Below, piece after piece: positions 15,905 through 20,739 of a DNA stretch of 64,000 bases. The stretch is from Wenjunlia vitaminophila DSM 41686 (lineage in GTDB: Bacteria; Actinomycetota; Actinomycetes; Streptomycetales; Streptomycetaceae). Numbering within the stretch: the first letter of the stretch is position 1; every line of letters begins with the position of its first letter. Location: NCBI RefSeq assembly GCF_000380165.1, contig NZ_KB904663.1:1-64000 (forward strand), given 5' to 3'. The position numbers and the translations under genes were made by a program. The notes under the pieces are model-generated. The model searched no databases, was not told where the DNA came from, and saw only the letters and a list, made by a program, of their open reading frames with translations.

Positions 15905-15967
15905 GATCGACAGACGTCCTTCCGGGGCGGGAGAATCGAAGTGCCCCACACGCTAGGAGGCGATCTC

Positions 15968-16144
15968 GTGACTCACCGAACGGTTGGTCACCCGGCAGGG
16001 CTCCCCGACGACCCGCACGCCCACACCACCGCGCCCACCCCCGAATGCCCCGTCGAGATCACGCTGGCGGCCCTGCACGGCCGTTGGACCACGCTGGTGG
16101 TCCGCGAACTGCTCCGTGGCGACCGCTCCCGTCGGCGCCTGTGA
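15968..16144 (+). pseudogene. 3'-truncated HxlR-family regulator at the island junction
   Basis: GTG 15968 follows a perfect AGGAGG. The product matches HxlR winged-helix regulators (CPVEITLAALHGRWTTLV then VRELLRGDRS) and then stops at 58 residues after RRRL. The family normally continues with SELRRALPGIS and the wing, about 110-130 residues in all. Similarity ends at about 16130, where base composition drops. The missing half is not found downstream of the island. This is therefore a gene cut by the rearrangement that placed the restriction-modification island here. Confidence 0.7.
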
Positions 16145-16263
16145 GTGTTCGAGCTTGATAATGCGGTGCCCATGTTGTGTTCGAGGTCTGGGGTAATCGC
16201 GTCAGCAGCGTAGACTCCCATGCTCAAGAACCGAGCGAAACCAACATCTTCCTTGAAACCCAT
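16141..16263 (-). pseudogene. 5' fragment of an unknown gene coupled to the controller gene
   Basis: ATG 16263 overlaps the stop of the controller gene as TGATG, a typical coupled start. The frame reads [16 protein letters not shown] then VYAADAITPDLE for about 41 codons. After that it enters DNA that codes, on the other strand, for the HxlR relic. The open frame runs to 15988 only by chance. I do not recognise the protein. The gene seems to have lost its 3' part at the same junction that truncated HxlR. Confidence 0.45.
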
Positions 16264-16502
16264 CAAATGCCTTCGAGTAGATGTGCGGCATCGACCTTAA
16301 GTGCACGTGCGAGGGCAATGATGTTGTCAAGGCTTACGTTGCGCTGACCTCGTTCCAACGAAGAGACGTAGGTGCGGTGGATCCCCGCAGCTTCCGCGAG
16401 CTCTTCTTGTGAGAGGCCTACCGAGAGACGGTACTCCCGCACGCGGCGGCCAAACGCCTCGCGATGCCGCTGAATGCGGGGTTTGTCGGAGGCTTGCGTC
16501 AT
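16263..16502 (-). CDS. XRE-family controller (C) protein of the restriction-modification island
   Basis: A 79-residue single-domain HTH protein: [20 protein letters not shown], then [20 protein letters not shown] and [20 protein letters not shown]. The length and the SxLERGxRNVSL pattern are those of controller proteins of type II restriction-modification systems (C.PvuII, C.AhdI), which time endonuclease expression after entry into a new host. It diverges from the methyltransferase gene, and a C-box-like site lies between them. No clear SD precedes ATG 16502, so the message may have a very short leader. Confidence 0.8.
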
Positions 16503-16535
16503 GATGTAAGGACGCTAGGACGGTGCAGACGATGG

Positions 16536-16548
16536 GTCTACAGACTAT
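16536..16548. promoter_or_regulatory. C-box-like operator between controller and methyltransferase genes
   Basis: GTCTACAGACTAT has the GTCT-N2-AGAC dyad. The exact reverse complement occurs before the endonuclease gene at 18478-18490. C proteins of this family bind GACT/AGTC-type dyads. A further AGAC half-site lies at 16527-16530. The position fits control of both divergent genes. Confidence 0.6.
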
Positions 16549-16551
16549 GAG

Positions 16552-16557
16552 TAACAT
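16552..16557 (+). promoter_or_regulatory. candidate -10 element for a leaderless methyltransferase message
   Basis: TAACAT ends seven bases before the ATG at 16565, and no SD precedes any of the in-frame starts (GTG 16523, ATG 16532, 16547, 16565). This suggests that transcription starts at or next to ATG 16565. No good -35 is seen, in keeping with control by a bound protein. Confidence 0.35.
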
Positions 16558-16564
16558 TGGCGGC

Positions 16565-18268
16565 ATGGCTGAGGAGATCGTGGTGGGCCGTGGTGACCCT
16601 GCCTACCTCGCGCACGCCTACCTGACGAAGGTTCCCGTGCCTGCGATTACGCCGTTCATCGAGGCGTACTGTCCGCCCGGCGGCGTCGTGGTCGACCCGT
16701 TCGCTGGATCTGGCATGACGGGGGTCGCGGCGCGGATCACCGGGCGCCAGGTGCGCCTGTCAGACATCTCTGTGCTGGGCCGGCACATTGGGTCCAATTA
16801 CCTGAACATGGTGGAAGGGCACGAGTTCACCAGTAGCGCGCAGGCCGTCATTAAGCGGGCTAAGGACGCTGTGGGCAAGATCTACGAGGTCCCCTGCAGT
16901 GGGTGCGGCGGGAACGGCCAACTTGCGAAGACTGTCTGGAGCGTTCTGGTGAGGTGTGCGGGCTGTGAGAAGCCCGTGAACTACTACCACTCGCTCGAGG
17001 CTGCGGAGTGGTCGAAGCCGAAGATGGTCTGCCCCCATTGCTCGGCCCACATTTCGAGCAAGCTTGATCGAGTGGGTGAGCAGCCCGTGGTCGACTATGT
17101 GAACTGCGCGTGTTCCCCGACGCAGCGTGAGCAGCCGGCGGTCGCCGCGCCGAGCATTGACGTCGACGGCCTGGACTTTCCCCACGTTGAGATTACGCCT
17201 GACCGGGAGATGTACCGGGCATCTGCGCTGGGCAAGAGCGGCTACACGACCGTGGCTTCGTTCTATTCGCCGCGTAACCTGCGTACTCTGGTGGCCCTGC
17301 GCGATGAGATCCGCGCAATTGAGGACCGCGCCCTGAGCCAAAAGCTACTGTTCGCGTTCACTGCGACATTGACTCGGGCGAGCAAGCGGTACCAGTGGTC
17401 GCACAAACGTCCGTTGAACGCCGCGAACCAGAATTACTACATCGCGCCGGTCTTCTACGAGTGGAACGTCTTTGAACTCTTCGAGCGCAAGACGACCGCC
17501 GTGCTGAAGGCTGATGACTGGATCCGGACGCAGGCGTTCACGCGCAACGTGGATGCGGACACGGTGCCCGCGGAGTACGTCACGGAGAGCGCTGCGGAGC
17601 TGTCCCTGCCGGACGCGAGCGTGGACTACGTGTTCACGGACCCGCCGTTTGGTTCGAACCTCTTCTATGCGGATATGGCGCTGTTCCAGGAGGGCTGGCT
17701 GGATGGCTTCACGGACGTCGGCAAGGAAGCGGTCATCGATCGCTCCACCGGCACGAAGCGCACGGCAGGCCGCTACGAGGCGCTGCTGACGGAGTCGCTC
17801 AAGCAGTGCCGTCGCATCCTGAAGCCTCACGGGCGCATCTCGATGGTCTTCGGTAACTCCTCGGGCAAGATCTGGGCAGTAGTCCAGCGAGCAGTCGCAG
17901 CAGCCGGCCTGCGCATCGAGCCGGAGAAAATCGCCATCCTGAACAAGGGGCAGCGCTCCGTGAAGGGGCTGGCCTCGGGCTTTGAGGACGTCGCTACGCT
18001 CGACCTTGTCCTGACGATGGTTCCGCAGGACGACGCTGAGGCTTCGTTCCAGCAGCCGACGGCTGAAGCCGTTGCTGCGGCGACGCGAGAGTTGGTTGGG
18101 GCTGCCGGCCCTGCCTCTCCGAGCCACCTGTATCTGGAGCTGCTCCGCCGCGCGCTTCGTGAGGGATGGAGCGTCGCGGACCTCGACCTGCAGACGGCGA
18201 CGGCAACGCTGCTTGATGACGGGTGGAGTATCGACCCGAAGACGGGCCTGTTGGTCGAGCCCGAGTAG
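16565..18268 (+). CDS. DNA methyltransferase (N4/N6 amino type) with zinc-ribbon insertion
   Basis: A 567-residue modification enzyme of the restriction-modification island. Motif I DPFAGSGMTG lies near residue 45, the catalytic motif IV DPPFGS near residue 365, and a late motif near ILKPHGRISMVFGN. The order I before IV is that of class alpha-like amino-methyltransferases. Between them is a Cys-rich insertion (CSGC, CAGC, CPHC, CACS, about residues 105-185) that looks like a zinc ribbon and may read the target. It is larger than, and unlike, M.PvuII. Start chosen as ATG 16565 because of the promoter geometry; starts up to GTG 16523 are possible. GC content is clearly below that of the flanks. 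Confidence 0.85.
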   Translation: MAEEIVVGRGDPAYLAHAYLTKVPVPAITPFIEAYCPPGGVVVDPFAGSGMTGVAARITGRQVRLSDISVLGRHIGSNYLNMVEGHEFTSSAQAVIKRAKDAVGKIYEVPCSGCGGNGQLAKTVWSVLVRCAGCEKPVNYYHSLEAAEWSKPKMVCPHCSAHISSKLDRVGEQPVVDYVNCACSPTQREQPAVAAPSIDVDGLDFPHVEITPDREMYRASALGKSGYTTVASFYSPRNLRTLVALRDEIRAIEDRALSQKLLFAFTATLTRASKRYQWSHKRPLNAANQNYYIAPVFYEWNVFELFERKTTAVLKADDWIRTQAFTRNVDADTVPAEYVTESAAELSLPDASVDYVFTDPPFGSNLFYADMALFQEGWLDGFTDVGKEAVIDRSTGTKRTAGRYEALLTESLKQCRRILKPHGRISMVFGNSSGKIWAVVQRAVAAAGLRIEPEKIAILNKGQRSVKGLASGFEDVATLDLVLTMVPQDDAEASFQQPTAEAVAAATRELVGAAGPASPSHLYLELLRRALREGWSVADLDLQTATATLLDDGWSIDPKTGLLVEPE

Positions 18269-18271
18269 GCG

Positions 18272-18329
18272 CTTCGAGTAGCCGGAGGGCGGCTGCCAGC
18301 TCAACAAAGGGTGGCCGCTCTACTCGAAG
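18272..18329. repeat. long inverted repeat after the methyltransferase gene
   Basis: CTTCGAGTAG (18272-18281) and CTACTCGAAG (18320-18329) are perfect 10-base arms with a partly self-complementary interior (GGCGGC and GCCGC). It starts just after the stop codon and probably forms a terminator-like hairpin separating the methyltransferase and endonuclease genes. Confidence 0.5.
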
Positions 18330-18477
18330 ATCAGCCGGTGGTCGCTCTTGCATCCGGCACTTACTCAGACGCCAGGCCAGCGCTCGGGTCGGGTGGGAGC
18401 TCGTACACCAGTTCCAAGGCAGCAACCCTACGCACTCGAACACCGGACCCTCGCGTTCCGCATCCTTTAAGTTGCTT

Positions 18478-18490
18478 ATAGTCTGTAGAC
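18478..18490. promoter_or_regulatory. C-box-like operator upstream of the endonuclease gene
   Basis: ATAGTCTGTAGAC is the exact reverse complement of the site at 16536-16548. A TATAGG at 18502-18507 could be the -10 element, leaving only a few bases of leader before GTG 18521. Inference: the controller protein switches the endonuclease from this site. Confidence 0.6.
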
Positions 18491-18520
18491 GTTGATCTAG
18501 GTATAGGCGACTGTTCCTAT

Positions 18521-19177
18521 GTGACTGAACATCAGCCCATCCCGAGGCAGAGAGACCAGGAAGGTCGGGGGTCCCTACTCCGTCCGCAAGGTGACATCCG
18601 CAAGATCGTAGAACTAGGTTTACAGCTTCAGAGGAGCGCCTCGGAGCGGCATATCCATAACGTGTTTGACGATGGTGGCTACAAGGAACTACTGCTACTT
18701 GAATTGTTCAATCTCACCAAGGGAGGGGGGCGAGTCGGTAACGATGCAACAGATGCGCTGGGACGCGAGTATGAAATCAAGACTGTCGCAAGATTGAATT
18801 TCAAAGGTGAGCGTAAGAAGAGTCTCAGTATTACTACGGAACATACGCTCACTCTCGACAACATTGATCGCTACCGGTTGGTCCACCTCTGGATCGTTGC
18901 GGTTTTCGACCAGTCGACTCCTGAAGCAATCTACGAGATCCATCCGAGAAATCTTGAGCCGTATTTCTCCCAATGGGAAGCGGCGCTTCGGAAACAGATG
19001 GAGATCGATGCTCGTCGGGGCGGGGGTGCGCGTCCTCACCTCAACAACCCCAAAATTCCTCTGAACTTCGTTGCTCGGCATGGTGTGAAGGTGTGGCCTC
19101 CAGATGATCCCGCTCAGGCCATGCTGCCGAACTATGTTCAAGAAGGACTCGAGGAAGCCCAAGAATTCACCGAGTGA
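18521..19177 (+). CDS. type II restriction endonuclease of the PvuII family
   Basis: A 218-residue endonuclease. RVGNDATDALGREYEIKT reproduces the PvuII active site (GND-AVDNAGQEY-ELK) with identical spacing: Asp75, Glu85, Lys87 for PvuII Asp58, Glu68, Lys70. Similarity continues through EAIYEIHPRNLEPYFSQWE and LNNPKIPLNFVARHGVKVW, also present in PvuII. In the recognition region the PvuII His-His-His run is replaced by a TTEHT stretch that keeps one His, so specificity may be CAGCTG or a variant. PvuII is 157 residues; this protein has an N-terminal extension of about 17 and a C-terminal one. GC content is only about half by eye, a mark of transfer. It has its own C-box rather than being fused to the controller operon. 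Confidence 0.85.
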   Translation: MTEHQPIPRQRDQEGRGSLLRPQGDIRKIVELGLQLQRSASERHIHNVFDDGGYKELLLLELFNLTKGGGRVGNDATDALGREYEIKTVARLNFKGERKKSLSITTEHTLTLDNIDRYRLVHLWIVAVFDQSTPEAIYEIHPRNLEPYFSQWEAALRKQMEIDARRGGGARPHLNNPKIPLNFVARHGVKVWPPDDPAQAMLPNYVQEGLEEAQEFTE

Positions 19178-19448: not shown

Positions 19449-20417
19449 GTGGAGCGGTCGGACGAGGTGGTGGCGGCTGCGAGCTGGATCGCCAGGGCGT
19501 CATTGCCGGTCGCGGAGCTGACTGAGGCGGGTCACGCGCAGGCGCTGGTGGAGGCGCTGGAACGCAAGCTGGATGGCAAACCGGCGGCGTACCAGACCTA
19601 CCGGCGGCGCCGGGCCGTGGTGTTCAACCTGCTGGAGTTCGCCCGGGAGACGGGAACCCTGTCCGCCAACCCCCTGGGGCAGGTACGGCGCAAGCGCGGG
19701 CACAAGCCGGTTCAGGAGGTGGACCGGCGCGTCGTGGTCAACCCCCGGCAGGCACGGGAGCTGTTGACCTCGGTCACCTACGTCGGTGGGTACCGGCGGG
19801 CCAGTGGTCGCCGGCTGAGGGCCTTCTACGGGTGCATGTACTACGCGGCGATGCGGCCGGGGGAGGTGCTGGGGCTGCGCCTGTCCGACTGCGAGTTGCC
19901 CCTCAATGGCTGGGGCAGGGTCACGGTGGAGGAGACGCGGCCCACGGCGGGCAAGGCGTGGACGGATTCCGGTGAGGCCCATGACCGGCGGGGGCTGAAG
20001 CAGCGGAGCCCCGGTGAGGTCCGGCTCGTTCCCATCCCGCCTCCGCTGGTGCGGATGCTCCGGGACCACGTGAAGGAGTTCGGCACGGCGGAGGACGGGC
20101 GGCTGTTCTCCAGCGAGCGGGGGAACGTGGTGGCGGCCTCGTCGTACTACCGGGTGTGGCGGCAGGCCCGGGAGCTGGCGTTACGACCGGGCCAGGTCTC
20201 CTCGGTGCTGGCGGCCCGGCCGTACGACCTGCGGCACGCCTGCGTCTCGCAGTGGTTGAGCTCGGGGGTTCCCGCCGCGGAGGTGGCGGCGCGCGCCGGG
20301 CACTCGGTCGAGGTGCTGCTGAAGATCTACGCCAAGTGCGTGGACGGGCAGGAGACGGAGATGAACCAACGGATCATGGCAGGGCTGGGGGAGGAGCCCG
20401 ACGAACTGACCACCTGA
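19449..20417 (+). CDS. tyrosine recombinase/integrase, probably 5'-truncated
   Basis: The 322-residue frame holds the whole catalytic domain: first Arg in AAMRPGEVLGL, Lys region near GLKQRSPGEVRLVPI, RHAC box in PYDLRHACVSQWL, His in AGHSVEVL, and the nucleophile Tyr in LKIYAKC. Actinomycete integrases of this type normally have about 130-150 more N-terminal residues (arm-binding and SAM-like domains). The frame stays open with coding-like content for about 18 codons upstream of GTG 19449, to a TGA near 19393, but offers no start with an SD. This indicates a broken 5' end. It reads toward the tRNA-Arg 3' end, as in pSAM2-type elements. Probably inactive. Confidence 0.75.
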   Translation: MERSDEVVAAASWIARASLPVAELTEAGHAQALVEALERKLDGKPAAYQTYRRRRAVVFNLLEFARETGTLSANPLGQVRRKRGHKPVQEVDRRVVVNPRQARELLTSVTYVGGYRRASGRRLRAFYGCMYYAAMRPGEVLGLRLSDCELPLNGWGRVTVEETRPTAGKAWTDSGEAHDRRGLKQRSPGEVRLVPIPPPLVRMLRDHVKEFGTAEDGRLFSSERGNVVAASSYYRVWRQARELALRPGQVSSVLAARPYDLRHACVSQWLSSGVPAAEVAARAGHSVEVLLKIYAKCVDGQETEMNQRIMAGLGEEPDELTT

Positions 20418-20551: not shown

Positions 20552-20667
20552 ATCACTGACAGACGGCTGCTTCCGGCGGCATTCGCCGGCGTCTGGCTGC
20601 ACAACGAAGAAACCCCGTGCCATGGCATTGTGCCTGGTCACAGGGTCTTTTTGCTGGTCACAGTGGG

Positions 20668-20739
20668 TGCCCCCGGCAGGATTCGAACCTGCGCACACGG
20701 CTCCGGAGGCCGTTGCTCTATCCCCTGAGCTACGGGGGC
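20668..20739 (-). tRNA. tRNA-Arg (anticodon CCG)
   Basis: The minus strand folds as a 72-base tRNA: acceptor GCCCCCG/CGGGGGC, D arm GCTC...GAGC, anticodon stem ACGGC/GCCGT with loop CTCCGGA (anticodon CCG), variable GTGC, T arm GCAGG-TTCGAAT-CCTGC and discriminator A. No CCA is encoded. Its 3' end faces the integrase remnant, so it is the probable attachment site of the lost element. Confidence 0.95.

Follow-up and report, generated by a model that had tools for sequence, protein, structure and literature searches.

We analyzed a restriction-modification (R-M) system encoded on contig NZ_KB904663.1 of Wenjunlia vitaminophila DSM 41686 (genome G000), within a stretch of 64,000 nucleotides (positions 1 to 64,000 of the forward strand; hereafter, the window). 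Three open frames at 16263-19177 encode a controller protein (C, minus strand), a DNA methyltransferase (MTase or M, plus strand) and a restriction endonuclease (R, plus strand), and the region also carries two C operators and the stump of a further gene, here called X. A preliminary description of the window, made from its letters, had proposed a PvuII-family R-M island with an unusual layout and a possibly changed target. The features of the locus are as follows (lengths in amino acids, aa).

16148-16266, minus strand: remnant of gene X, its first ~33-40 codons, with a start overlapping the C stop codon (tblastn and profile match)
16263-16502, minus strand: C protein of the XRE/HTH_3 type, 79 aa (PADLOC Control_protein, 70.9 bits)
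16528-16552, minus strand: C operator of 25 nt between the C and MTase genes, its first 16 nt identical to the operator of Proteus vulgaris pPvu1
16565-18268, plus strand: DNA amino-methyltransferase, 567 aa, ATG start, with a GTG at 16523 also possible (PF01555, PADLOC MTase_II)
18474-18498, plus strand: second copy of the C operator, before the endonuclease gene, in the same arrangement as in the related locus L002
18521-19177, plus strand: PvuII-family restriction endonuclease, 218 aa, GTG start (PF09225, PvuII in the PDB, alignment)

The endonuclease is a member of the PvuII family, as had been proposed: its match to PF09225 scored 102.6 bits against a cut-off of 25 (E = 2.7e-29), and all six matches in a PDB sequence search were PvuII (E from 1.1e-39 to 2.2e-18). 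Residues D58, E68 and K70 of PvuII, which we take to be catalytic, correspond to D75, E85 and K87 at exactly the PvuII spacing, in agreement with the preliminary description, and are invariant in 12 aligned proteins. Five further PvuII residues (D34, H84, H85, N140 and N141) presumably contact bases; in an alignment with 11 relatives, D34, N140 and N141 are D51, N175 and N176 in the window protein. The earlier statement that the loop histidines differ from PvuII was partly right, with H83 replaced by E107 and H85 by T109, but H84 is kept as H108. The H83 position also varies among relatives paired with M.PvuII-type MTases, where it is His, Asn or Asp. A literature search on the PvuII contact residues yielded one review (PMC4081073). 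In sampled genomes the system is rare, since PF09225 was present in 2 of 396 genomes of the phylum and the window-type endonuclease in 1 of 394 genomes of the family; a scan of GTDB yielded three close relatives of the endonuclease. Elsewhere, at L010 (3737-4519), a PvuII-family endonuclease of 260 aa annotated as a helix-turn-helix protein is probably a fusion of C and endonuclease.

The C protein is 47.6% identical to that of pPvu1 over 63 aa, and with its family match and a PvuII-type operator upstream it qualifies as a C.PvuII-type regulator. The operator between C and MTase is present also in L002, L052 and L053 and, with small changes, in L003 and L004. The sequence ATAGTCTGTAGAC occurs exactly twice in the 64 kb, in the C/MTase gap and upstream of the endonuclease, against an expectation of 1.5e-4, bearing out the earlier view that the endonuclease lies behind the MTase under its own operator. 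In this second copy the left half is recognisable, with two changes in the window and none in S. niphimycinicus, and the outer right box is not kept in register. According to one study, activation in PvuII is tied to the left operator and repression to the right one, whose disruption raises transcription (PMC3695507). Because the left half is kept here and the outer right box is not, the endonuclease promoter is, by analogy with those roles, likely to undergo activation without late repression. A single C protein that would serve several promoters, with operators at both the MTase and the endonuclease genes, recalls Esp1396I, the likeness being one of arrangement.

The MTase is, as the preliminary description held, a 567-residue protein unlike M.PvuII. 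Only 56 aa around the S-adenosylmethionine (SAM) motif could be aligned with M.PvuII, and the order of motifs is opposite: FAGSG at 46 precedes DPPF at 359, versus SPPF at 45 before FGGS at 265 in M.PvuII. The features of an M.PvuII-type (beta-class) enzyme, SPPF ahead of the SAM motif together with full-length similarity, are not found in the window MTase. It matched PF01555 at 63.2 bits, and its best family match was PADLOC MTase_II (PDLC03312; 319 bits, residues 3-486), a profile that differs in being 1344 positions long. It also matched BREX-3 PglXI (PDLC02541; 242 bits, best stretch residues 220-499), the homologous enzyme of Roseomonas and Roseicitreum BREX-3 loci, from which it differs in length (567 vs ~920 aa) and in its partners, here a Type II endonuclease and a C protein. 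A BREX-3 system would have pglZ, brxC-type and other core genes next to the MTase; profile scans at the locus covered C, MTase, endonuclease, integrase and three flanking open reading frames (ORFs). The zinc ribbon noticed earlier is corroborated by a zinc-ribbon-like insert between the SAM motif and DPPF, with three CxxC pairs (111/114, 131/134 and 156/159) that are all invariant in five aligned proteins, two of them also in a six-row set; a fourth cysteine pair is C-x-C. An AlphaFold model (predicted local distance difference test score, pLDDT, 81.2) retrieved Rossmann methyltransferases in general, the best being Trm11 (Z 13.9, 172 residues aligned, root-mean-square deviation 3.0).

Plasmid relatives of the MTase included tandem MTases of Arthrobacter-type plasmids and BREX-3 MTases; a search of phage records returned no match to it, although two viral contigs carry such an MTase at 56%. 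On one Arthrobacter-type plasmid (L015), two tandem MTases of this family (35%) accompany an AAA ATPase and proteins of no known function, and L014 shows a similar first part; the cluster is possibly another defence system. The two viral records, L019 (6001-7719) and L020, are near-identical, have no endonuclease in the sequence examined and retain CAGCTG sites (10 in 26.7 kb and 24 in 47.7 kb), so that a self-protection gene is possible.

PvuII cleaves CAG/CTG to leave blunt ends, and this hexamer is strongly avoided in the host. None occurs in the window, where 21.4 are expected from composition and 21.0 from a maximal-order Markov model. A sample of the window's genome (262,535 bases: the window and 20 further stretches, 11 of them contigs shorter than 2.1 kb) holds 11 against 95.8 expected, a ratio of 0.115 and the lowest of the 44 palindromes with an expectation of at least 5; the same-genus genome G403 gave 122 against 175.6 in 400,000 bases. 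Over whole genomes, the counts are 169 in 6.43 Mb (26 per Mb) for G000 versus 2755 in 8.5 Mb (324 per Mb) for G403. When the 394 family genomes were ranked by CAGCTG per Mb, with ranks read by eye, the lowest were G688 (15), G000 (26), G680 (34), G684 (35), G662 (36) and G647 (40), and a profile of the MTase (E up to 1e-30, best three candidates per genome scored) matched exactly G000, G647 and G688, which hold ranks 2, 6 and 1. By hand calculation, ignoring kinship, the chance that three random genomes all fall in the lowest six is ~2 in a million. Other carriers have 18 (S. niphimycinicus), 24 (D. roseum), 150 (Frankia) and 195 (G055) sites per Mb; D. roseum is the lowest of 31 genomes, the other 30 each having at least 205 per Mb. 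A published survey (PMC4687349) reports that about half of 1774 cases of orthodox Type II sites show avoidance, linked to long residence, and that traces of lost systems occur; its statistic differs from ours. With independent R and M genes and an avoided host site, the locus has the marks of an orthodox Type II system, assuming that its site is CAGCTG.

Seven of the 11 residual CAGCTG sites in the sample lie in a single 20-kb stretch (L059, G000:C3:1-20000). Most of the few places listed for residual sites in D. roseum likewise fall in 339-360 kb, and such clusters perhaps mark recently gained DNA. The second most avoided palindrome of the G000 sample is AGGCCT (observed/expected 0.36), perhaps through another restriction system or the trace of one.

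The closest known system is PvuII on Proteus vulgaris pPvu1 (NC_002632), which shares with the window the endonuclease family, the catalytic and most recognition positions, the C protein, the operator core and, probably, the site CAGCTG. It differs in that the window MTase is of another family, that R stands behind the MTase with its own operator and not in the C operon, that the window's relatives have the extra gene X, that H85 is Thr in the window and that the window endonuclease has 218 aa versus 157 in PvuII. The layout is unusual, as first noticed, and it is one of several arrangements of a C/MTase/endonuclease/X module, a variety that the preliminary description did not see. Among 38 fetched loci with PvuII-family endonucleases (excluding the window and including two pairs of near copies, L042/L043 and L038/L039), an M.PvuII-type MTase lies nearby in 25, in one of which (L009) it is broken up, a window-type MTase in 4 and none in 9, all viral, within the sequence examined. 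The window-type MTase stands beside a PvuII-family endonuclease in five of five chromosomal loci found with that endonuclease (the window, L002, L003, L004 and L007). Their gene orders are C(-) M(+) R(+) in the window and L002, M(-) C(+) R(+) X(+) in L003, R(+) C(-) M(+) in L004 and M(+) R(+) in L007, where no clear C is seen and the endonuclease, with a different loop, shows just 31% identity. A viral locus, L022, pairs an endonuclease carrying the TTEHT loop of the window with an M.PvuII-type MTase. Among open-access papers on PvuII or CAGCTG in Streptomyces, on HEAT repeats in restriction and on PglX in Type II systems, judged by their abstracts, none was found to describe this arrangement.

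Several of the viral loci with no MTase in the sequence examined (L030, L034 and L042-L048) adjoin replication genes. Eight of these nine loci (L043 being omitted as a copy of L042) hold no CAGCTG in 65,069 bases, where 7.9 are expected under a Markov model, and the nine whole records together hold one; the reversed control motif is also rare in those records.

Gene X was missed by the preliminary description, and the left edge of the island is its stump, not plain flank. The remnant is 88% identical to X of L052 over 33 aa by tblastn, with a further 10-aa piece, and gives a profile match of 31.5 bits; the C/X junction is as in L002, L052 and L053. To judge from these sequence comparisons, X belongs to the module in the relatives and survives as a stump in the window. 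In G647 and G688, whose C and MTase are 89-94% identical to those of the window, X has 489-490 aa and lies behind C, with the X start and the C stop overlapping. X occurs also in S. niphimycinicus (83%), D. roseum (40%) and the viral loci L035, L041 and L055; no copy turned up in the genomes of Frankia or G055, and it had no match among plasmids or in PADLOC. In L035 and L041 it stands beside R and an M.PvuII-type MTase, and in L055 beside a window-type MTase, with no R in the sequence examined, the contig ending soon after X. Found with either type of MTase, it seems to be a component of PvuII-type systems that has so far gone undescribed.

The C-terminal half of X consists of HEAT repeats, and its predicted structure (pLDDT 75.9 overall) begins with a helix and three strands. 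The invariant residues D59 and E70 fall on the second and third strands (59-62 and 68-74), which neighbour each other in the model, and position 72 is Lys or Arg. A PD-(D/E)XK core has the topology alpha-beta-beta-beta, with Asp and Glu-x-Lys on adjacent strands, and the N-terminal part of X, as modeled, resembles it. A fold search with X showed no nuclease in the 50 rows shown of either list, which held HEAT/ARM-type and other proteins, the HEAT part dominating.

We consider it very probable that the locus is a mobile Type II R-M system that cuts unmodified CAGCTG, combining a PvuII-kind endonuclease and C switch with an amino-MTase of another family that would mark a base of the same site. 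After entry the MTase would be made first; C would then accumulate, bind the operator next to the MTase gene and switch on the endonuclease through the second operator copy. The ancestral arrangement was probably that of D. roseum, with C-endonuclease-X divergent from the MTase, and in the window lineage the endonuclease may have moved behind the MTase while X was cut down.

Several observations weigh against this account. H85 is replaced by Thr; the reversed control GTCGAC likewise falls, from 6692 (787 per Mb) in G403 to 1959 (305 per Mb) in G000, although far less steeply; the 30 relatives of D. roseum were compared by CAGCTG count alone; Frankia and G055, counted by themselves without relatives as controls, have the system and show no strong depletion; and the depleted MTase carriers G647 and G688 gave no match to a PF09225 endonuclease. 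In G680, G684 and G662, among the six most depleted genomes, searches with the MTase, PF09225, X and M.PvuII were all negative, so CAGCTG depletion also has other origins; the PF09225 search of the 11 genomes of the depleted set and controls returned no match even in the controls, and the same query matched G000 in other searches. Together with G513, G768 and G474, these genomes have 34-71 sites per Mb and yielded none of the four genes sought, and they may have lost their systems or carry a further CAGCTG enzyme.

A change of target, the explanation examined first, would agree with the Thr of the TTEHT clade and with an MTase of a different family. It is highly improbable and we reject it, because none of the other 44 palindromes tested in the host sample is avoided as much as CAGCTG, and four further carriers of the MTase (S. 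niphimycinicus, D. roseum, G647 and G688) also avoid it strongly. The equivalents of D34, H84, N140 and N141 are kept, and the H85 change alone need not shift the site, since L022 joins the same loop to an M.PvuII-type MTase; the target is probably unchanged, to judge by these sequences. Depletion might instead have nothing to do with the system and reflect a lineage trait, another CAGCTG system or methylation-caused mutation, as the depleted genomes without an MTase match could suggest, the restriction genes sought in G000 being those of this system. We regard this as quite improbable: depletion is seen in carriers from two genera of the window's family and from Dactylosporangium but not in most relatives, and the gathering of residual sites in one 20-kb stretch is what would be expected if newly gained DNA still has its sites. 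Deamination at a methylated C was considered and found unlikely, because among one-step neighbours its product CAACTG is not enriched (ratio 1.07); the most raised are CACCTG (1.37) and GAGCTG (1.28), and an A-to-G route is conceivable. That the island is decaying, its endonuclease no longer expressed or active and the avoidance a relic, would suit the stump of X and the eroded island edge but seems unlikely given open frames for C, MTase and endonuclease, conserved active sites and the presence of both operators.

A bolder alternative, which we hold to be possible if doubtful, makes X a second, unrelated nuclease that restricts CAGCTG alone, R and X being interchangeable or additive around a C-MTase core. 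It draws on G647 and G688, which have C, MTase and X and are depleted in CAGCTG, on X taking the place of R in a C-R operon with overlapping start and stop, on the company X keeps in L035, L041 and L055, and on the predicted fold with D59 and E70. Against it, the assignment is by topology and motif, with no restriction nuclease among the fold-search rows shown; L041, L035 and L055 have Arg at position 72; R could lie beyond the end of the L055 contig; and G647 and G688 may owe their depletion to an R since lost. X would have one of two roles: restricting CAGCTG on its own, or assisting R, in which case the depletion of those two genomes is a relic. We only tentatively suggest a modular CAGCTG defence in which a C-MTase core is served by a PvuII-type R or by X, as a new PD-(D/E)XK-HEAT nuclease of the same target, each of which may be lost while the other keeps up restriction, as with X only in G647 and G688 and R only in the window.

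Under the favoured account of a mobile system, the neighbouring DNA gives the locus the character of an island, as first described; an integrase and a tRNA gene lie to its right.

19449-20417, plus strand: tyrosine recombinase (integrase), adjoining the system (PF00589, 40.2 bits)
20666-20739, minus strand: tRNA-Arg (CCG), the probable integration site (ARAGORN)

In L002 and L052 the system likewise has this tRNA-Arg nearby, and L053 and L003 contain part of it as a copy of 43-47 bp. Such partial copies argue only weakly for a shared attachment (att) site, because a match of 43 bp occurs also in a stretch of G403, a genome with no endonuclease or MTase match. A search of the window for a second att copy of the tRNA-Arg end gave no convincing candidate. 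The flanking DNA that the window has in common with S. niphimycinicus is 70-75% identical and points to a probable Streptomyces-group origin of the window, and a truncated ORF at 15941-16144, HxlR-like by eye, had no Pfam match at E up to 0.01.

The avoidance of CAGCTG points to the target without a methylome, making the claim of a CAGCTG-cutting system directly testable. In this lineage the endonuclease and its C switch have apparently kept their site while the protecting enzyme was replaced, so that two families of MTase can be compared on one site.

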